From IMG/VR virus record IMGVR_UViG_3300046463_000857, positions 1 to 59,332 of that record: DNA of 59,332 nucleotides; one strand, 5' to 3'. How positions within the stretch are numbered: the first letter of the stretch is position 1; each line of letters starts with the position of its first letter. Below, piece after piece: positions 3,818-58,390 of the stretch. This stretch comes from a virus. The translations under genes and the position numbers were made by a program. The notes below the pieces were generated by a model. That model had not been told where the DNA came from and ran no database searches. It saw nothing but the letters and a program-made list of their open reading frames with translations.

Positions 3818-4321
3818 TTATTGCTGGCCTCCAGGCTGACTCCCGAGGCACGTTTTGCACACGCCCAATTGACAGGCACCTTGCCCATCGCAGGCGGCAA
3901 CGTAAAATTTGAAAGTGCATTGTGTGCAGTAAGGGTCAATCACAATGCTGTAGGGCGCGCTCGTCACGACCATGTCACCGTCTGGAGTATGCTTCCAACA
4001 GGAAATAGTGATGGTGCCTGCGGTGAGCGGACTCGGATTATTTCCAATCCAGTTGTCAGGTATCGCAATCGTGAACGAGAGCCCGGTAAGGTGAAGGCAA
4101 TCGGTTCCGTCCGAGATGACGCCCACTCCCTGAAAATCACCGTTGGTTCCGTTTATCGGAGGGATGAAAGTGCCGTTGGGGGTGCCAGTCCATTCCACTA
4201 TGTAGGGTGTAGAGATGGTCATACGAGCATCAAACAGACATGAACCGGCAGCCTTCGCCCGCGAGGGGGCGACGAACATCGCCAGGACGGCGCATACTAG
4301 ACTGAGAACTGATTTTATCAT
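3818..4321 (-). CDS. Secreted Cys-rich hypothetical protein
   Basis: A 167-aa protein with a clear Sec signal peptide: basic start MIKS, hydrophobic core VLSLVCAVLAMFV, then an AKAA-type cleavage region near residue 24. The mature part begins GSCLFDAR and is beta-rich. It ends in a cysteine cluster (YCTQC, then CDGQGACQLGVCKTC) suited to disulphides or metal binding outside the cytoplasm. Export by a phage protein suggests host-envelope modification, exclusion or adhesion, but no domain is recognised. It is one of at least four signal-peptide genes in this leftward block. Confidence 0.65.
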   Translation of the reverse strand: MIKSVLSLVCAVLAMFVAPSRAKAAGSCLFDARMTISTPYIVEWTGTPNGTFIPPINGTNGDFQGVGVISDGTDCLHLTGLSFTIAIPDNWIGNNPSPLTAGTITISCWKHTPDGDMVVTSAPYSIVIDPYCTQCTFKFYVAACDGQGACQLGVCKTCLGSQPGGQQ

Positions 4322-9925: not shown

Positions 9926-10654
9926 TCATGTCTGGGCGTCCACAAGCTCTGCCTGAAGTGTGGCCTCGATGTTCTGCTGCTCTGCCTTGGCAAGCTGCTG
10001 GTCAAACACCAGGGCACGCGGAGAGGTGGATGCACTGGCCTTCGACATCGCGTCAGCAATGGCGCTGTGAATCTCCTGCGATGTCGGTCCGCTGTCGTCG
10101 TTCTCTTCCTTGAGTCGGCGCGCGCGGTCCGGCGTCGTGTCGTTGAGAGCGTAATAAGACATCATGTGCGCCTTCTCAATCGCTGAAGTAAGGTCAGTCA
10201 AACCGCGTGCAGAAAATTTGCGTTCGACAACCTTGTCACCGTTCTTGCTCGTGGTCTCAGTCTCCTGGAATAGCTGCGCGAAAAGCTCCTGGTCGTTCAT
10301 GTCATACAGCCGCTTCACTGCGCGCTCCAACACCATTCGCATCCGAGTAATCTGTCCGAAGTTCAGCGTGCGGTTGACCATCCGCTCAATCTCTTTTGGT
10401 TTCGCATTCTTCTTGAGCGTAACAATGGGCTGAATCTTTTCCTTCCATTGCTCTTCGTCAACCATGCGCTGCAATGCGACAGCGTCAATCTTGCACTCTG
10501 CTGCGGTGCGCGCGACATCGCCACTGGTCGCGAGGTAAACCATGAACACATTCTGACGGTCCATTTCAACGACAGGCAAATTGTCTGGCGTCTTCACCAG
10601 GGCCACGACCTTGCGTCGTTGTCTGCGTGCTTCCTTGGCTTCGAATTCGTCCAT
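9926..10654 (-). CDS. Possible terminase small subunit (HTH DNA-binding, helical)
   Basis: A 242-aa protein from MDEFEAKEARRQRR; GGAG lies 8 nt upstream and the previous gene stops 2 nt before. Residues ~35-65 form an HTH-like unit (MVYLATSGDVARTAAECKI, ALQRMVDEEQW) of the kind used by small terminases to recognise packaging sites. Long helices follow (IERMVNRTLNFGQITRMRMVLERAV) suited to ring oligomerisation, and the C-terminal part is Ala/Gln-rich. Immediately downstream are iterons and palindromes that could be its binding site. No large terminase follows, which weakens the call; a different HTH regulator is the alternative. Confidence 0.45.
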   Translation of the reverse strand: MDEFEAKEARRQRRKVVALVKTPDNLPVVEMDRQNVFMVYLATSGDVARTAAECKIDAVALQRMVDEEQWKEKIQPIVTLKKNAKPKEIERMVNRTLNFGQITRMRMVLERAVKRLYDMNDQELFAQLFQETETTSKNGDKVVERKFSARGLTDLTSAIEKAHMMSYYALNDTTPDRARRLKEENDDSGPTSQEIHSAIADAMSKASASTSPRALVFDQQLAKAEQQNIEATLQAELVDAQT

Positions 10655-10656
10655 GC

Positions 10657-11034
10657 TCAACTCCAATCCACTGGGAAAAGTATTTCGATTGACTTGCGCC
10701 GATACCAGCCGGTGCCGCGCGGTCCATTGCTCAATCGCATGAACCACTGATAGTCCGCTGGCAGCCATTGAGGTGGTGAGTCGTGCGCGGTGAAAAGCAA
10801 CGTGCCGCAGTGGCCGCAATGCTTCGAGCCCAGGTCCACAAAAACTTTCGCGCCACGCGTGTTCATGCGGCACTGTGGGCACCAGTGCCCGGAGTGCGCG
10901 CGATTCCATTTCTTAATCGGCTGCGGGGGCTGCCACTGAGACAGAGGCTGGCCAGGAATTGTGATTCGCAAATCACTGACTGGGGTGTTAAACACCGAAA
11001 GGTCTGCGGGGAATAATTGGTCGAAGATGCTCAT
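10657..11034 (-). CDS. Zinc-ribbon hypothetical protein
   Basis: A 125-aa protein, MSIFDQLFPADLSVF..., with a four-cysteine zinc ribbon: HWCPQC and, ~20 residues later, KHCGHCG. The C-terminal part is Trp-rich (WLPADYQWFMRL). Pro-rich N-terminal residues may be an unfolded tail. The gene ends 2 nt before the possible small terminase, with which it probably forms an operon. Zinc ribbons usually bind nucleic acid or protein; no specific family. Confidence 0.58.
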   Translation of the reverse strand: MSIFDQLFPADLSVFNTPVSDLRITIPGQPLSQWQPPQPIKKWNRAHSGHWCPQCRMNTRGAKVFVDLGSKHCGHCGTLLFTAHDSPPQWLPADYQWFMRLSNGPRGTGWYRRKSIEILFPVDWS

Positions 11035-11199: not shown

Positions 11200-11484
11200 G
11201 GCCCGGGCCGGACTTGTCAATTACTCGATTGTATTGCCGAACCGTCAACATGTATATCCAACATGGGTTCCCACTTCTCTGTATAAAAAGTGTGGTTAAC
11301 CGGTATTCTCATATTTATTATAAAATAATCTTGTGCGTATATGAAAGATATACCATGTTATGCATGCTTTTGGCGTAGAGAAGTGAAAACCCGAGTTGGA
11401 TATAGATGTTGGTGGATGCACAATAGAAAGAAGTTGACAACTGGGCGATTCGGCGCGACGTCTATATGTCGAAACGTCATCACT
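11187..11484. other. AT-rich divergent intergenic region
   Basis: It separates the leftward and rightward gene blocks. It is much more AT-rich than its surroundings (TATTTATTATAAAATAATC near 11310-11328), as expected for a bidirectional promoter. GCGACG-TCTATAT at 11455-11467 is a variant of the GCGACT motif, 17 nt before the ATG at 11485. TTGACA occurs at 11434-11439 without an obvious -10 at normal spacing. No gene is convincing here. Confidence 0.5.
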
Positions 11485-14074: not shown

Positions 14075-15505
14075 GTGCCGCTGTTACCGACCGCTTATGG
14101 AGTCCGCCCGCCTGCGCCAAAAGATTTTGGCCCTCTCGCTGACCCACCTCCGAATCCGGAAATAAATGACATCTACTTCGACACTACTCAGGGCTTCCGT
14201 TTCGTATGGAATGGACTCTTCTGGGCGACAATTGCAAACGGTGGCGGAGGTGGAAGTGGCACTGGGCCGACTGGAGCAACCGGCCCGCGCGGTTCTACTG
14301 GACCGTCTGGTGCTGCTGGCAGCCAAGGTGCAACGGGTGACACTGGAACGACCGGACCTACGGGACCAACTGGCTACAGTGGGCCGACTGGAAACACTGG
14401 CCCTACTGGATACACTGGGGATACCGGGCCTGGGGGACCCGCAGGCGGACCTACTGGACCGACCGGCTACACCGGATACACCGGCCCAAATTCTGGCTTC
14501 ACCGGAGATACCGGTCCGACTGGTTACACAGGTTACACGGGACCCGCAGGCGCGGGCTCAACTGGACCCACTGGACCAACTGGCTATACTGGCCCGACCG
14601 GGCCGGGGATAGCAAGCACCGCGTATGGCGAAATTCATTTGCTCTCAGACTCGACGGTGCTGGTCGCTGTGCCCGGGACTTATTACAATTTCAGCACCAC
14701 CTGGGTTGCTGGTGACACGTTCAACACGACGGTCAACACGGCGACGGGAGAAATCACTGTCCTGGTTGACGGAGAATATCGCGTCTCTGTGTCGCTGGAT
14801 TTTCAGTGCATCACGGCGAACCAACTCCAGTATCGTATCTTCAAGAATGGAGTGCTTGTCCCAGGCTTCACGCTCAAGGTTGTTCCGGCGAATGGAGGTT
14901 ACACTAATGTCCTCATCGCGCTCAACGGAATCGTTTCATGCCTAGCCAATGATATTCTCTCCGTTAAAGTCGGCAATAACGCAGGCGGCACATTCAATCT
15001 CACGACTCACGATGCGGTTTTCGCGGTCTCGTTGGTTAATGGAGCCCGAGGCGATACAGGTCCAGCAGGCCCTACAGGCTATACCGGTTATACTGGTGGT
15101 GCTGGTGCCACTGGGGACACTGGCCCGACTGGTTACACTGGCCCTGCTGGGATTCCAGGTGCTACTGGGCCTACTGGGTTTACTGGTCCTACTGGATACA
15201 CGGGACCGACGGGTTACACGGGGGACACTGGCCCGGGCGGCACAGGAACCACCGGAGACACTGGACCAACTGGCTACACGGGTTACACGGGACCAGGGAA
15301 TTTCACAGGATACACTGGACCTACTGGCCCTACCGGATACACTGGTCCAGCCGGTGGGTCTGGGACTAATGGACCTACCGGGCCAACCGGGTATACCGGC
15401 TACACTGGGCCGCAGGGACCCACCGGATACACAGGTTACACCGGGTATACAGGTTACACGGGGCCAGTGAGTCCCGATGTTCTCTACATCCAGGTAATGA
15501 GTTGA
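14075..15505 (+). CDS. Collagen-like tail fibre with central C1q/BclA-like domain
   Basis: 476 aa from a GTG directly after the GCGACT-N7 motif. Residues 1-55 are Pro-rich and contain [16 protein letters not shown], likely the virion-attachment end. Two Gly-x-y blocks (about residues 57-172 and 325-468), rich in GPT and GYT triplets, would form collagen-like triple helices. Between them, ~150 residues ([44 protein letters not shown]) have the jelly-roll pattern of C1q/TNF-like trimer domains, as at the C-terminus of BclA. Probable trimeric fibre or receptor-binding protein. The GYT triplet bias is unusual. Confidence 0.85.
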
Positions 15506-16712: not shown

Positions 16713-18497
16713 ATGGCTGACGCTGACGCTCCATTATTTTCTGTCGTAGTAATTGCACGCAATGAATCCAAGACACTTCCTCGACTCACGGAGTCGCTGA
16801 AGGAATTCAAGGCGAGGGGTGGACAACTCGTATTGATGGACACCGGGAGCACCGACGGGACACAGCGACTCGCGCTCGACCTGGGATGGGAGGTTCACGA
16901 AGCCACATACACGCAGAGAATCGGCACCGCTGAAGCAAAGGAAATCAACGCGAAGTTCGTCAAGGAATCCGACCCGGAACTGCTGGAAGGTGGCGAGACT
17001 TTTTTCGACTTCTCTGCGGCGCGCAACAACGCGGCGCAGTTTGCGCGATGTAACGTGGTTGCAATGCCGGATTGCGACGAGGTTTACACGAAGCTCGACA
17101 TCGACAAAATCAACGAGGCTATCCGGAGTGGAACGCATCAATTCGAATACGAGTTTGTCTTCGCCCACGACTCCGAAGGCAAGCCAGCAGTGCGATTCCG
17201 GCACTGCAAATTCTACAACAAAGGTGTGCTATACTGGACCGGAATCATCCACGAGATTTTGTCTCCATTGTTCCCTAAGCTGGACGCCATTAAGAGAGAC
17301 TACGTTGATTTCATACGCCTGGAGCATTGGCAAAATCCCGGCACGAATCGCGGGAACTACCTGACCGGGCTCGCAATCGACTGCAATCGCAATCCGAACA
17401 ACGACCGCAATTCGCATTACTTCGCGCGGGAGCTAATGTATTCGGGCCGGTATGCTTCGGCATGGGACGAATTCGCGAGGCACATCAAGATGAACAGGTG
17501 GTTAGCGGAGCGGGCACAGTCGAAAATTTTCCAGGGCGATTGTGCCGCTGCGCAAGGGTATCCCGACATTGCGCTCGAAATGTATTTTGAAGCCTGGAAG
17601 CTGGATGGAAATCGCAGGCTGGCCCTGGTTCGAATCGCTGACCACTATTACAAAACAAAAGACCCACAACGCTGCGCTACGTTCGCACATGCCGCCCTCA
17701 CCGTCCCAAAAGATTCATTCTACGGGAACCACGAGTCGGATTACACTTGGTATCCGCACGAAATGCTTTACTGGTCGTCTTGGCAGCTTGGACAGAAAGA
17801 CGCGGCGCGCATTAGCTGGAACATCGCGCGTAGATATTCTCCAACCAATTCGAAATATCTTCACGACGCGCGGTTCTTTATGGACCTGCCGAAAGTGAGC
17901 ATCGTGATTCCGCATGTTCCGGATACCCGAGACATCAAGGGAGTGTTGATAGCGATTCAGCAGAACGCAAACTACCCAAACTTCGAGGTGCATGTGGAGG
18001 ATGATAGGTGCGCGCGCGGGTGCCCGGTAACACTCAACGACGGAGTGGTCAAAACGGATGGAGACTTGGTGATGTTCCTTGGGGATGATTGCGAACCGCA
18101 GCCGGATTTTTTAATCCAGGCAGTTCTCAGTCATCTGGACTTTAAATGGAAATCCCGGAAAGATAGGGCTGTCACCGCGCTCAACGACGGGATGTGGGAC
18201 GGAGAGCTAGCGACGCATTGGCTGGCCGACCGAGACTTTAAATCCGCGTTACCTACGGGGGTATTTTTCCATGAGGGCTACCATCACGTAGGCTGCGACA
18301 ACGAGCTAACCGGTTTCGCAAAAAAGTGGTGCTGCTACAACTACGCGCCGCTTTCGAAAATCAAACATACACCGGTGGACGACGAGGTTCACCGGCTAGG
18401 ATGGCAGCCGAATCTGGTTGCACGAGACCGTGAACTGTTGAAAGTGAGATGTGAAACTTATGAACTGGATAAAGAGGATTCTTGTTGCGCTGGCTAA
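16713..18497 (+). CDS. Bifunctional glycosyltransferase, two GT2 domains
   Basis: 594 aa. The N-terminal GT2 domain has FSVVVIARNES, D43-T-G-S-T-D-G and the metal-binding DCD at about residues 121-123. The middle (residues ~210-380) is helical with repeat-like character (a TPR-type region is possible). A second GT2 domain begins near residue 391 (KVSIVIPHVPD) and has FLGDDCEPQPD around 454 as its DxD equivalent. Probably adds two sugars or binds a carbohydrate chain, for example on a virion protein or host surface. It overlaps the next gene. Sugar donors unknown; GDP-fucose is a candidate because the dehydratase gene follows. Confidence 0.85.
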   Translation: MADADAPLFSVVVIARNESKTLPRLTESLKEFKARGGQLVLMDTGSTDGTQRLALDLGWEVHEATYTQRIGTAEAKEINAKFVKESDPELLEGGETFFDFSAARNNAAQFARCNVVAMPDCDEVYTKLDIDKINEAIRSGTHQFEYEFVFAHDSEGKPAVRFRHCKFYNKGVLYWTGIIHEILSPLFPKLDAIKRDYVDFIRLEHWQNPGTNRGNYLTGLAIDCNRNPNNDRNSHYFARELMYSGRYASAWDEFARHIKMNRWLAERAQSKIFQGDCAAAQGYPDIALEMYFEAWKLDGNRRLALVRIADHYYKTKDPQRCATFAHAALTVPKDSFYGNHESDYTWYPHEMLYWSSWQLGQKDAARISWNIARRYSPTNSKYLHDARFFMDLPKVSIVIPHVPDTRDIKGVLIAIQQNANYPNFEVHVEDDRCARGCPVTLNDGVVKTDGDLVMFLGDDCEPQPDFLIQAVLSHLDFKWKSRKDRAVTALNDGMWDGELATHWLADRDFKSALPTGVFFHEGYHHVGCDNELTGFAKKWCCYNYAPLSKIKHTPVDDEVHRLGWQPNLVARDRELLKVRCETYELDKEDSCCAG

Positions 18498-20220: not shown

Positions 20221-20248
20221 TTGCGTTTAAACGGGGCGGGTGTATCTT
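20221..20248 (+). promoter_or_regulatory. Sigma70-like promoter, leaderless type
   Basis: -35 TTGCGT (20221-20226), 16-bp spacer containing GTTTAAAC and ending in TG, -10 TATCTT (20243-20248). The ATG at 20255 is 6 nt after the -10, so the expected start of transcription is the A of ATG. Confidence 0.7.
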
Positions 20249-20879: not shown

Positions 20880-21110
20880 ATGCCAATCGACTACAGCAAA
20901 ACCATGGGATATTCCCGCACGTGCTCCGTGCGGGTGTGCGAACACATCAACGGTTCTGGCCCGAAATATGGGCACGACAAATGGCCTGCCGTCCAGGTTC
21001 GGGTAGATTTCCCGAAGGAGGGCGGGGAAAAGGCCCGGGAGCAATTCTTGATTGCCCTGGACGAGTTTTTCCGGCTCCAGGGATTTCCTGCTCCGCGCTA
21101 CGAAAGTTAA
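20880..21110 (+). CDS. Hypothetical 76-aa protein
   Basis: MPIDYSKTMGYSRTCSVRVCEHI..., 3 nt after the previous stop, thus in the same transcript. Two cysteines near the start and a helical C-terminal part (EKAREQFLIALDEFFRLQGF). No family recognised. Confidence 0.55.
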   Translation: MPIDYSKTMGYSRTCSVRVCEHINGSGPKYGHDKWPAVQVRVDFPKEGGEKAREQFLIALDEFFRLQGFPAPRYES

Positions 21111-26535: not shown

Positions 26536-26899
26536 AGTAGGTATCGGCGGCGCGCCCGCCCGCGCCACGATACTGCCCACGACCGCACCAGAGCGGAAGA
26601 AATTTCCGGTCGCCTCAGGTGTGCTGGACTATTTTCCGGATGCGCTTGCGGCGATAGCAAATGTGTCCTGGCATGGAAACAATCAACATAATCCGGACAA
26701 GCCGTTGCATTGGGACCGAAGTAAGTCCGGCGACGAGGCCGACACCATGATGCGCCATTTTCTTCAGCGTGGAACCGCCGACAGCGATGGCATCCGGCAC
26801 TCTGCAAAGATGGCTTGGCGCGCCTTGGCGCTGCTCCAGAAAGAAATCGAATCGGAGGCAGTCGAACGTGCTGCGCCCACGGACGACGTGCCTTTCTAA
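26504..26899 (+). CDS. dATP/dGTP diphosphohydrolase-like protein (DUF5664 type)
   Basis: 131 aa. The core KFPVASGVLDYFPDALAAIA, SWHGNNQHNP and the H-W-D-R-S...D-E-A-D-T-M-M-R-H-F...H-S-A-K-M-A-W-R-A pattern match the phage family annotated as dATP/dGTP diphosphohydrolase. The His/Asp residues would bind metal. Some relatives help to exclude standard purines from modified phage DNA, but no modifying enzyme (such as a PurZ-like synthetase) is seen. It overlaps the DUF1937 gene by 32 nt; a TTG at 26498 is an alternative start. Confidence 0.7.
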   Translation: MMENTPTAPVKVGIGGAPARATILPTTAPERKKFPVASGVLDYFPDALAAIANVSWHGNNQHNPDKPLHWDRSKSGDEADTMMRHFLQRGTADSDGIRHSAKMAWRALALLQKEIESEAVERAAPTDDVPF

Positions 26900-26901
26900 G
26901 C

Positions 26902-27231
26902 ATGAAAAAACTACTGCTGGCTCTGATGTTGCTGGTGGCACTGCGAGTCAACGCAGTGCCGCCAGGGACCCTGGAGTGGGACTATGTGTTTCCACATCCA
27001 GGCGTCCATTTCGAAGTCTGGTATTCCACCGACTTAACTCACTGGGCTTTGCTTTGCGACACTGATGTTACCTACTGCCGGATTCCTCCGCTGACCCACG
27101 AAACGTTTTTCCGGTGCCGAGCGGTGGACGACAACACCCTGGTGAGCGATTGGAGCAACATCGCGGCGAACGATTTAACCCAGGACGAATCCCAGCTTTT
27201 GGATTACCTAATCGATAATGCTAACCGATGA
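26902..27231 (+). CDS. Secreted fibronectin-III-like protein
   Basis: 109 aa with a signal peptide (MKKLLLALMLLVALRVNA). The mature part resembles one FN3 domain: HFEVWYSTDLTHWALLCD, TDVTYCRIPPL, ETFFRCRAVDDNTLVSDWSN, where the Y/F-x-x-x-A strand and final S-x-W-S are typical. FN3 domains mediate surface binding. It lies within the replication genes, 2 nt after the diphosphohydrolase-like gene, an odd place for an exported protein. It overlaps the SF2 helicase by 14 nt. Confidence 0.65.
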   Translation: MKKLLLALMLLVALRVNAVPPGTLEWDYVFPHPGVHFEVWYSTDLTHWALLCDTDVTYCRIPPLTHETFFRCRAVDDNTLVSDWSNIAANDLTQDESQLLDYLIDNANR

Positions 27232-28738
27232 AATTTTTGGAGCCCTGCGACCCCATCAACCGGCGTTGGTTCGAGAACTATTTTCGGTCCTTGGGAAACG
27301 CCGAACTGCGGTCGATTTATCAGACCCTGGTGCAGGAAAAACATATGTCTCCTGTGCTGTTGCTGCTCTCCGAAAAAGAGCTACGCTCGTGGTTGGACCT
27401 AAGATTTCAGAAGGAGTATGGAAGCGCGCTGCAAAACATTTTGGGGACTCCATCTCCTTTGCCGGATACGAGAAATTGCGTGCTGGAAATACTCCTTTTG
27501 GAAGCTGGTCGAAGGCGAATCGAAAATCAACTGTTTACTACGTCTGCACCAACTGCCAGCAAAAGGTTGACCTTGCGAAGCCGCATCCGTGCTATTGCCA
27601 CCCGCACGGCTTCCACTGCCTGGAGACTCGCAAGAAAGCTCCGAGCTACGGCACTTTCAGTTTTGCGCCGGAAATCCAGGACGTAATTTTTGACGAGGTT
27701 CACCGCTGCGGTGGAATGGACTCGCTAAACGCGGACTTGCTAATAGCGGCTAAAAACCAAAAGCTAACCATCACTGGACTGTCCGGCACCGTCGCGTGCA
27801 ACCCGCTCAACATGCGCGCACTTGGGTATGCACTCGACCTGCATAACCTGGACTCAGATTTAACTGCCGTTGCGCCGATTGGGCTCCGCGTAATCCGGCC
27901 AAACTTCAAACGCTGGGCACGCAAACACGGATGTGTTCACGACCCGAGGTTCCACGGCTGGAAGTGGCTCGTGGGTTCAGAGCGACAGAGAGAAGTCATG
28001 ATGGAAATCCGGAATCAAATTATTCCGGACCGTGGAATTCGAGTAGGCTGGCGAGACATCCCCGGCTTTCCAGACCGACAGATTACGGCAGAGTTATATA
28101 ACACCGACGACGTTGAAAAAGCGAATGCGTTGTTCAGGGAGATGGAGGGGGCCGTAGGTCAGCTTCGAGACCGCGCGTTCGCTGACAAAGACCCGGACCA
28201 TCCGCTCACAAGAATTTTGAGAGCCCGCCAAGAAGTGGAGCTTTTAAAAGTGCCGATATTCACCGAGCTAGCACAAGATTACCTGGACAAAGGATTGACG
28301 GTGATTTTCTTTGTTAATTTCCGACAAACAATAGATGAACTGTTTAAACGCTTTCCACAATTCGGAATCCTCGATGGACAAACTTCGAACCGAACCGAAA
28401 CGCTCGACGCTTTACAGTCGAATCGGATTTCTGGTCTCATTGCTAACAGCGATGCTGGTGGTATTTGTTGCGACATGCACGATTTGGATGGGAGTCATCC
28501 TCGTGTCGGCCTTGTTTCCCTTGGGCTCTCTGCTGTTACGACTAAGCAGGTCTTTGGCAGGCTTCATCGGGACGGCGCGCTGTCGCCTGCGCTGTATCGG
28601 TGCATTCTTCTCGACGGGACAATCGAAAACGAAACCCACCGAATGCTCGCGCCGAAACTCGACAACATCGACACGTTGAACGACGGAGATTTACAGCCAG
28701 AAAATCTGCGATTTGTGGCTAAAGGTAGTTTGACATAA
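27218..28738 (+). CDS. Superfamily 2 helicase with zinc-finger insertion
   Basis: 506 aa. The N-terminal LRPHQPALVREL Q-motif-like box is followed by Walker A DPGAGKT (~40), a Cys-rich insertion (YVCTNCQQ...HPCYCHPHGFHC, ~110-135), the DEVH box (~160), SGT motif III, and the C-terminal motifs TVIFFVNFRQTIDEL and QVFGRLHRDG (~444). This is the order of SNF2/DEAD-type ATPases. Phage members remodel replication forks or recombination intermediates. The zinc insertion between Walker A and B is a distinctive feature. The final codons include TTGACA, the start of the next promoter region. Confidence 0.85.
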   Translation: MLTDEIFGALRPHQPALVRELFSVLGKRRTAVDLSDPGAGKTYVSCAVAALRKRATLVVGPKISEGVWKRAAKHFGDSISFAGYEKLRAGNTPFGSWSKANRKSTVYYVCTNCQQKVDLAKPHPCYCHPHGFHCLETRKKAPSYGTFSFAPEIQDVIFDEVHRCGGMDSLNADLLIAAKNQKLTITGLSGTVACNPLNMRALGYALDLHNLDSDLTAVAPIGLRVIRPNFKRWARKHGCVHDPRFHGWKWLVGSERQREVMMEIRNQIIPDRGIRVGWRDIPGFPDRQITAELYNTDDVEKANALFREMEGAVGQLRDRAFADKDPDHPLTRILRARQEVELLKVPIFTELAQDYLDKGLTVIFFVNFRQTIDELFKRFPQFGILDGQTSNRTETLDALQSNRISGLIANSDAGGICCDMHDLDGSHPRVGLVSLGLSAVTTKQVFGRLHRDGALSPALYRCILLDGTIENETHRMLAPKLDNIDTLNDGDLQPENLRFVAKGSLT

Positions 28739-28742
28739 CCAC

Positions 28743-28770
28743 TTGCGCTCTGGCTGTTCAGGTGTATTGT
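28743..28770 (+). promoter_or_regulatory. Sigma70-like promoter of the structured RNA
   Basis: -35 TTGCGC (28743-28748), 16-bp spacer ending GGTG, -10 TATTGT (28765-28770); +1 expected near 28777. A TTGACATAACC block overlapping the helicase stop also precedes the promoter at 30108. Confidence 0.65.
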
Positions 28771-28776
28771 GTGGGT

Positions 28777-28939
28777 AGTTCTTTGAAGGCCGCGTCCGTC
28801 GTGCTCCTGCCGAATCTGGAGGTTGCTCCTCCGCTAGCAGGCTCCGCGTGGGTCCAAAGGTTAGCAGTGCAAAAGTAGCCGGGTCGCTCCGGTAAGGTAT
28901 GCAGGAACTAGCCGGGTAAAGCGGACGTAGCCTTCAGAG
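28777..28939 (+). ncRNA. Structured RNA closed by a 16-bp long-range helix
   Basis: CTTTGAAGGC (28781-28790) pairs with GCCTTCAGAG (28930-28939) with one wobble. Inside it CGTCCG (28793-28798) pairs with CGGACG (28922-28927), separated by a 2x2 internal loop. The interior has hairpins CCTGC...GCAGG enclosing GGAGG-TTGCT-CCTCC, and CCGG-GTCGCT-CCGG. The RNA starts a few bases after the predicted promoter and ends before ten A residues and the ATG at 28952. No frame within it looks coding. It may be an independent small RNA or a structured leader of the next gene. I do not recognise it as RNase P, tmRNA or 6S RNA. Confidence 0.6.
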
Positions 28940-28951
28940 AAAAAAAAAATT

Positions 28952-29200
28952 ATGCACGGACTATCTGGAATCATTCGAATGAACCGCAAAGCGGTGGAAG
29001 CCGCCGACGCAATCGAAGACAATCACAATCGCCACTGCTCGTTCTCCGGCGACGCGAAGAACGGAGTGGTGCTGCACTCCGCGAAGCTGCGGAACACGGT
29101 GTTTCTGTATCCGCTCCAGGCAAAGCGGTTTCTGGTGAAGTGGTTCAGCGTGAACAGCCAGGAAGCCCGCGATTCGATTGTGGAAAGCTATTTCGTATGA
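28952..29200 (+). CDS. Hypothetical 82-aa protein
   Basis: MHGLSGIIRMNRKAVEAADAIEDN..., then VVLHSAKLRNTVFLYPLQAKRFLVKWFSV. A compact alpha/beta protein lying directly after the structured RNA. It may be controlled by that RNA. The stop overlaps the next ATG (ATGA). No family recognised. Confidence 0.6.
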   Translation: MHGLSGIIRMNRKAVEAADAIEDNHNRHCSFSGDAKNGVVLHSAKLRNTVFLYPLQAKRFLVKWFSVNSQEARDSIVESYFV

Positions 29201-30011: not shown

Positions 30012-30103
30012 TTCACACGCTTTGGTTTTGGCTGGTGGTCACAATCGTAATGGCGATAGCCTGGAAAGACGACCACGACAACGACGAAGATAGTTTGACA
30101 TAG
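30008..30103 (+). CDS. Very small membrane protein
   Basis: 31 aa: one hydrophobic span (TLWFWLVVTIVMAIAW) followed by an acidic tail KDDHDNDEDSLT. The start overlaps the preceding stop as ATGA. It ends AGT TTG ACA TAG, the same -S-L-T-stop end as the SF2 helicase; both ends carry the start of a promoter block. Confidence 0.48.
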   Translation: MIHTLWFWLVVTIVMAIAWKDDHDNDEDSLT

Positions 30104-30107
30104 CCCC

Positions 30108-30135
30108 TTGCGTTTAAACGGCGCGGTGCTAAGCT
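30108..30135 (+). promoter_or_regulatory. Sigma70-like promoter, leaderless type
   Basis: -35 TTGCGT (30108-30113), 16-bp spacer with GTTTAAAC and GTGC, -10 TAAGCT (30130-30135). ATG at 30142 is 6 nt downstream. Confidence 0.65.
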
Positions 30136-56638: not shown

Positions 56639-58390
56639 TTACGTTAGGGTCATGTTACCTAGAGACAGAATCTGGACACCCCCGAGACCCGTGTCCGGAG
56701 AACATCGCACGATAAGCTCCAGCAGAATGTGTTTTACCGAATGCGCCGGTAAAACCAAAGACAATGTGAACGGAGTAAAGGGACCCGTTACTAAGTCCCG
56801 TAGGGGCGACTGAATGCTGCTTCCTGAACCGGGAATAGAATCATACAACTCCATGTTGAAGATTACTCCATCCTGGCCCGCGATATAATTGCAAACATTT
56901 CCATCGGCTTCCCACGCTGGAATGTGCCAAGTCAGCGTAACGGGATTGTCTGTCGGATTACATATCCGGGAAGTAAAACCCTGGGAAGTGGAAAGCTGAA
57001 AACAAGGACCGACGCCCGGTGAGAGTGCGTTAAAAGTTCCTGTTCCGCCCGCCATTGTATTCCCGGGGTCAGCCGGAGAAATCGTCCAGGTCAGGTCTGC
57101 AATATTGCTGGGCACACCGGCGCACTCGCCATCTGAAATAGCGATACTGTAGCTCCTAGAGCATATTTCCTGGTCCGTGCTAGAGTCCACGACCTGCACC
57201 TCGAAGGTGCTAGTCTGATTCGTAGTAGGAGTGCCGGAGACATGCCCCGCTGAATTCATGCTGAGCCCATCGGGCAGGCTACCGCTAATAATCGAAAACG
57301 TAAGCGGCGCAGTTCCTCCGCTAGCAGTAAAATCAAAAGTGTAAGGCGTGGTGGTGGCCCCGCTGGGAGGATTCGCATTCGTAAATCCAAACGTAATCAG
57401 CTTGTAGTAGAAAATCGCTACACGGTTATTCGCGCTCGTAACTGTGATGTTGTAGTGGAAAGTTCCACTCACTGTCGGGATGCCACTCACGTTTGCCGAA
57501 ATCGGTGACTCTTGCGCAAACACCAATCCGGTCGGCAACGGGTCCCCGGCGTATACAAAAGTGCAAGGCCCCGTGAATCCATCCGGCGCGAGAGTAGTCT
57601 CTCCGAACATATCTCCAAGGCATCCATCTAAGTCGGTAGTGTCCCCTCCGCCACCTCCATCGGGAATACAGGTGCAGCTTGCTGCGTTCCAGGTGAACCC
57701 TGGTTCACACGGGCTCGTGATTAGCCCGCACGGCACACACTCACATAAGATAGCATTCCAGCCCGTTCCAGGAGGACACGTCAACGGAGAGCAATCAAAG
57801 TCTGTGCATACGTGGTCACTCAACGGAGTCTCGCCATCACCAGTGATTGCGGTGATTCGATAACATCCCGGCGTGCAGACTTCGAACGAGCTTCCAGAGA
57901 AGGCATACCAGTAGAGACTGTAAGGGCCGCTAGGCCCATTAGAACTTTTATACAGATTGTAGGCAACGGTCTGCGGGAACACAGGAAGAGCGACGATGGT
58001 ATATCCTCCGCCTGGAATGGCGATAGGCGAACTTCGGGCCGACTCATGCCCCTGTCCATCGATAGCGGAAATCTCATAGTAGCCCTCCGAGCACAGCGCA
58101 ATCGAACCGTTAGGAACGCACTCCGAAATTAAATTGTAAGGGCTGTCCGGATTATTCGGGTCTATTGCTTCATAAATCTGGAAACAGATTTGCCCGGGAA
58201 CATTGTCGAACGAAAAGAATCTGCGGCCTCGCCCGCCCGCTCTGCCGCCCGTCGGTCCATGATGCCGGAGGATGTCGGGCAGAATTATAACCGGGCCACC
58301 GCTGCTCGAAAACTGTGCCTCGCAAATCGGTGGCGACACATACTCGATGCGCGGCTTGCGCAGAAATAGAGTGTCTAAGATTACGTTCAT
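56639..58390 (-). CDS. Ig-like/putative-Ig (He_PIG) domain virion protein
   Basis: 583 aa. The middle contains bacterial Ig-like strands: YDFTASGGTAPLTFSIISGS, LPDGLSMNSAGHVSGTPT, STFEVQVVDSST, with the L-P-x-G-L...G-x-x-S-G-T-P signature of He_PIG domains near residue 390. An earlier half-copy reads LPTGLVF...ISANVSGIPTVSGTF. The N-terminal part has FN3-like turns and paired cysteines (CPPGTGWNAILCECVPC). Probably a receptor-binding or spike protein. ATGA-coupled to the gene at the right edge. Confidence 0.75.
   Translation of the reverse strand: MNVILDTLFLRKPRIEYVSPPICEAQFSSSGGPVIILPDILRHHGPTGGRAGGRGRRFFSFDNVPGQICFQIYEAIDPNNPDSPYNLISECVPNGSIALCSEGYYEISAIDGQGHESARSSPIAIPGGGYTIVALPVFPQTVAYNLYKSSNGPSGPYSLYWYAFSGSSFEVCTPGCYRITAITGDGETPLSDHVCTDFDCSPLTCPPGTGWNAILCECVPCGLITSPCEPGFTWNAASCTCIPDGGGGGDTTDLDGCLGDMFGETTLAPDGFTGPCTFVYAGDPLPTGLVFAQESPISANVSGIPTVSGTFHYNITVTSANNRVAIFYYKLITFGFTNANPPSGATTTPYTFDFTASGGTAPLTFSIISGSLPDGLSMNSAGHVSGTPTTNQTSTFEVQVVDSSTDQEICSRSYSIAISDGECAGVPSNIADLTWTISPADPGNTMAGGTGTFNALSPGVGPCFQLSTSQGFTSRICNPTDNPVTLTWHIPAWEADGNVCNYIAGQDGVIFNMELYDSIPGSGSSIQSPLRDLVTGPFTPFTLSLVLPAHSVKHILLELIVRCSPDTGLGGVQILSLGNMTLT

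Follow-up and report, generated by a model that had tools for sequence, protein, structure and literature searches.

The window, that is, the whole stretch of DNA analysed (59,332 nt), corresponded to the complete IMG/VR record G000 and represented a phage encoding a family-A DNA polymerase and a Cas4-like exonuclease. A helicase gene (nt 27218–28738), assigned by PHROG and Pfam matches and by synteny, and an 82-aa gene, g28952 (nt 28952–29200), flanked an intergenic slot at nt 28739–28951; these genes and the features described below within the slot and at its edge are all on the + strand. The slot was non-coding by codon use, as the best of its six frames scored no more than 0.0 bits per codon, compared with 0.14 to 0.28 for the neighbouring genes and -0.03 for the lowest 1% of coding windows. 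No family match was found for the 82-aa product of g28952, and its protein fold gave no useful match. Shine-Dalgarno-like motifs preceded 6 of the 46 phage starts, compared with 11% of random positions; since starts in this phage do without the motif, the A10-TT spacer (nt 28940–28951) before the ATG of g28952 represents an ordinary, A-rich start context. Elsewhere in the window, a strong structure at nt 26811–27106 (z about -6) overlapped the start of a small protein bearing a signal peptide, and nt 14075–15505 encoded a collagen-like protein with G-P-T-G-Y-T-G repeats, followed by a glycosyltransferase-like protein (nt 16713–18497).

Behind the helicase gene, a -35 element TTGCGC (nt 28743–28748) and a -10 element TATTGT (nt 28765–28770) were separated by a 16-nt spacer, and six bases separated TATTGT from the predicted +1, A28777. 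This TTGCGC-16-TATTGT-6-A arrangement bears out the first-pass annotation, which had placed a promoter at nt 28743–28770 with +1 near nt 28777, because TTGCG with the same spacing recurred in the window at leaderless promoters, namely TTGCGT-16-TATCTT-6-ATG at nt 20221 and 34306 and TTGCGT-16-TAAGCT-6-ATG at nt 30108, where the A of the ATG is the +1. An upstream box, AAAGGTAGTTTGACATA (nt 28721–28737), recurred at nt 30086, more weakly at nt 21103, and in the relatives L034 and L069, the recurring pattern in the window phage and these relatives being AAAG.TAGTTTGACA. The box was common to other promoters of the window phage and of L034, and these start leaderless genes. In L034, GGTGTATTGTGTGGG was found in identical form at the syntenic place behind the helicase and was followed directly by CATG. 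More generally, promoters of the form TTGAC/TTGCG-16-TA...T-6-ATG were observed at nt 20221, 21124, 30108, 34306, and 9487 (- strand), in front of genes lacking Shine-Dalgarno motifs.

What follows this promoter was read from the sequence as a non-coding element, about 165 nt long, that begins with the ten bases AGUUCUUUGA and contains a three-way junction. The folded part spanned 163 nt (nt 28779–28941) and was closed by helix P1, with arms at nt 28779–28799 and 28921–28941, in which 12 bp (nt 28779–28790 with 28930–28941) and 8 bp (nt 28792–28799 with 28921–28928) were separated by a C28791·A28929 mismatch; the closing helix of the first-pass annotation is thus real, but its length is 20 bp rather than 16. 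Likewise, an ATG does follow the element as had been described, but the element does not end before the A10 run (nt 28940–28949), the first two A residues of which close the helix. Inside P1, helix P2 (nt 28802–28806 with 28914–28918) closed a three-way junction with arm A (nt 28809–28853), which is weakly supported by the window sequence alone and has an alternative fold 2.3 kcal/mol above, and arm B (nt 28859–28913), predicted by folding. The minimum free energy of the element was -73.8 kcal/mol, and the + strand (z -3.9) folded better than the - strand (z -2.9). A helix this good appeared in none of 10,000 dinucleotide shuffles of the 175-nt interval from promoter to ATG, compared with 7.5% of shuffles when it was allowed anywhere in the window, so that the position of the helix matters. 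The enclosed hairpins alone were not more stable than chance in the window sequence (z +0.75).

Related sequences were collected through a polymerase alignment, which brought in about 37 related loci, and about 25 related phage genomes were searched with a single-sequence covariance model, the E-values being derived from a short calibration. The first such searches covered partial loci only and missed the one true homologue, which was found once the far end of G011 (IMGVR_UViG_3300037484_001420) was included; it matched over its full length at L073:714–548 (- strand) with 37.9 bits and an E-value of 4e-8. No further members were found in the other relatives with models from both RNAs, several of these relatives being fragments and some having been scanned only by a loose first pass that, with model R1, had missed G011. 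Apart from an identical copy in IMGVR_UViG_3300046663_000412, the only one found, the RNA is therefore known from two independent sequences, both from related phages of soil. The G011 promoter, TTGACC-16-TATAGT-6-A, had the same geometry as that of the window, the first ten bases, AGTTCTTTGA (L073:731–722, - strand), were identical in the two phages, and an ATG lay 1–2 nt past the helix.

Folded by itself, the G011 RNA adopted the same layout (z -5.4). Between the two sequences all 20 pairs of the closing helix and the C·A mismatch were retained, partly through G-U pairs, with 6 two-sided compensations, whereas random substitution of the 3′ strand kept the helix in only 6 of 200,000 trials. 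Over the whole structure 98% of the cells paired, and 17 two-sided changes, 2 of them in P2, were observed, compared with 8.4 in shuffles and 0 to 2 when the pairs were slid; RNAalifold, run on the same two-sequence alignment, agreed. The structure itself guided the interior part of this alignment, so that the closing helix provides the most secure evidence. Further hairpins inside the helix, also claimed in the first-pass annotation, were supported by the homologue, the interior of which reached z -2.8 with covarying arms including arm B, but not by the interior of the window sequence alone. Covariation in relatives, on which that annotation had made the closing helix depend, was present, and its view that the RNA is structured and has a promoter of its own gains support from the compensatory changes in the homologue.

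The gene order helicase - slot - g28952 - Cas4-like exonuclease - polymerase was conserved in many of the related loci, and in sister phages the slot was occupied by one or more leaderless small ORFs placed at the promoter, to which the RNA region was unrelated; in L042, g28952 itself stood directly at the promoter. The gene was kept in relatives that lack the RNA. Two of the roughly 25 related genomes carried the RNA, in unrelated locations and with different genes downstream. Comparison of G010 with G011, which share homologous neighbours, showed a promoter followed by a leaderless ORF in the former versus a promoter, the RNA and an ORF in the latter. A separate observation concerns G036, where an HNH/AP2-like endonuclease gene, assigned by eye, occupied the slot behind the helicase (L064:2649–3161).

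In agreement with the first-pass annotation, which had not recognised the RNA as a known class, Rfam 15 gave no match to the window RNA at the gathering score or even at an E-value of 10; the homologue likewise had none at gathering, the weak match being to a hammerhead model (E 0.81, 14.5 bits against 52). ARAGORN found no tRNA or tmRNA in the element. An expression platform of the riboswitch kind was not seen, as neither a terminator nor a Shine-Dalgarno sequence, which the phage does not use, lay between the 20-bp closing helix and the ATG. Searches by blastn of phages and plasmids with both RNAs returned short chance matches only, and the interior-loop pattern, sought in IMG/VR and GTDB, was met only in the identical phage and by chance inside unrelated sequence. 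Several candidate leads were dropped: a 15-mer match in G002/G003 lay in unrelated sequence context, a CCUCC loop in arm A resembling an anti-Shine-Dalgarno sequence was missing from the homologue, a 14-nt stretch complementary to the gene at nt 56639–58390 was near chance, and descent from a decayed small gene was rejected because the region did not resemble the small genes in the sister phages.

The ten bases at the predicted +1 (nt 28777–28786, AGTTCTTTGA) resemble boxA. In a pattern search they were identical to boxA in the 16S leader of a Paenibacillus, and the sole GTTCTTTGAAAACT of a 4.6-Mb Paenibacillus genome sits in the 16S leader, as AAGTTCTTTGAAAACT. In Bacillus subtilis, boxA is of the GTTCTTTGAAAAC type. 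Against GYTCTTTAA of the gamma-proteobacterial consensus GYTCTTTAANA (PMC5725501), a consensus that may not be that of the host, the ten-mer agreed at 8 of the 9 defined letters and was one transition off. Most of the ten-mer was paired inside the closing helix in the window, while in G011 it preceded the helix. The heptamer TTCTTTG was noted at most 12 nt upstream of a tRNA in L070 (about nt 4219–4230) and L083 (nt 16906–16919), against a background of 0.016 per 160 nt, and in L083 it lay at the predicted +1 of the tRNA transcript. In Escherichia coli pre-16S rRNA, boxA together with a leader-trailer helix longer than 17 bp yields an antiterminated RNA that is closed co-transcriptionally (PMC10250234). 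By comparison, both phage homologues carried the boxA-like sequence at the predicted +1, towards the 5′ end as in a boxA-dependent antitermination leader, and the closing helix comprised 20 covarying base pairs plus the C·A mismatch, as would suit a pre-rRNA-like unit.

Neither phage had a terminator between the RNA and the gene that follows, and the RNA therefore forms at least the opening part of a longer transcript. On balance, nt 28777–28941 are given an even chance of being a lineage-specific phage gene for a non-coding RNA that would be made and folded like pre-rRNA, probably be cut from the operon transcript, and serve as trans-acting cargo. Accounting for the features above, host RNA polymerase would start at A28777, and the boxA-like 5′ end would recruit the host NusB-S10 (rrn-type) antitermination complex, which would keep Rho off the untranslated stretch and, as happens with pre-16S rRNA, retain the 5′ strand until its 3′ partner has been made. 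Pairing of the two RNA ends would next give a helix roughly two turns long, suited to RNase III, which would free a stable RNA from the operon transcript; the downstream small gene would be translated from the remaining transcript, and the freed RNA would act in trans as optional, moron-like cargo.

The parallel with pre-rRNA, in boxA antitermination and helix closure, is drawn by analogy. Like the leader-trailer of pre-16S and pre-23S rRNA, the phage RNA is untranslated, has a boxA-type GTTCTTTGA at its 5′ end and is closed by a long helix that joins the two ends; unlike them, it is about 165 nt long, has no rRNA content, is preceded by a phage promoter, has its boxA at +1, and in the window has boxA overlapping the helix. 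CRISPR arrays are described, in work cited by PMC12691694, as shielded from Rho through the rrn antitermination complex, and there too boxA would help to carry a non-coding transcript, but the phage RNA has no repeats or spacers. As with lambda nut, which contains boxA, and HK022 put, the RNA heads a phage transcription unit; unlike in these systems, no boxB/N pair was found and the place is not conserved in the phage group, and put presumably lacks a closing helix of the present kind. The pRNA of phi29, a phage RNA of similar size that also has a closing helix and a three-way junction, differs in belonging to another phage type; there was no sign of a link to packaging, and the Rfam 15 search, assumed to include a pRNA model, gave no covariance-model match. 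Phage T4 encodes the stable RNAs C and D, the function of which is unclear, but those lie in a tRNA cluster.

A small RNA and a regulatory leader, both suggested in the first-pass annotation, remain candidates. As a cis-acting structured 5′ leader, the RNA would stay on the downstream operon, protecting its 5′ end and/or, through boxA in the manner of nut or put, making polymerase resistant to termination. This is possible, at clearly less than even probability: the boxA-like element at the predicted +1, the lack of a terminator, an ATG 2–11 nt behind the helix in both phages, and the A-rich start context usual in the window phage all fit a leader, but the downstream genes of the two phages differ, g28952 is expressed in relatives that lack the RNA, as a leaderless gene in L042 and downstream of a leaderless ORF in others, and a riboswitch-like platform was not seen. 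Because the RNA also occurs patchily and in two genomic places, cargo RNA is ranked above a leader, and an RNA cargo gene is favoured from the sequence comparisons. A decoy that sequesters NusB/S10 of the host and thereby lowers its rRNA synthesis is improbable; a boxA-like ten-mer at the very 5′ end of the RNA in both phages would suit it, but in the window most of that ten-mer is hidden by pairing.

Explanations without a functional RNA are less probable still. A DNA-level inverted repeat, either a small mobile, MITE-like element ending in 20-bp repeats or a palindrome bound by a protein, is very improbable: the ends do form a 20-bp imperfect inverted repeat and the two phages carry it at different places, but each genome (the window and about 25 relatives) holds no more than a single copy, the flanks lack a target duplication, AGTTCTTTGA opens both copies right at the predicted transcription start, an RNA-type C·A mismatch and G-U pairs are kept, and the + strand folds better. 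Chance structure in a decayed small-gene slot is hardly credible; the window-wide shuffles and the unremarkable interior fold would permit it, but the homologue, with its 6 closing-helix compensations and identical +1 sequence, strongly disfavours it, as do the interval shuffles and the lack of similarity to sister-phage small genes. Returning to the non-coding RNA gene, it is a more tentative and rather doubtful extension that a family of phage RNAs borrows the host rRNA production line, boxA antitermination with leader-trailer closure, for a stable viral RNA or else as a NusB/S10 decoy.

Hardly any of the non-coding RNAs of uncultured phages have been mapped, and the present RNA combines a predicted promoter and a covarying fold with exact ends and a candidate host-machinery tag, which make it directly testable. 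If the boxA step holds, rrn-type antitermination would extend to a viral small RNA gene, and phage non-coding RNAs might be found through a boxA-like sequence at the +1 of phage promoters that lack a start codon.

Other structured regions were observed in the phage group. In G022, a structured non-coding stretch of about 350 nt (L044:445–790) lay behind a TTGACA promoter and upstream of an RNA ligase gene; it contained a perfect 20-bp closing helix at nt 548–664, and only a marginal match to a snoRNA model was obtained, upstream of the stretch. Long hairpins of about 130–200 nt with AT-rich centres occurred in at least nine genomes, mostly between divergent -/+ genes, at window nt 11242–11415 (z about -10 on both strands), L073:5294–5453, L083:13882–14073, L087:8044–8232, L095:9993–10177, L103:19684–19880, L101:11928–12118, L134:about 10580–10735, and L139:about 2430–2560. 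Their arms were near-perfect in several relatives although the sequences differed between phages, so that they look like a maintained palindrome, perhaps an origin or a divergent control region.
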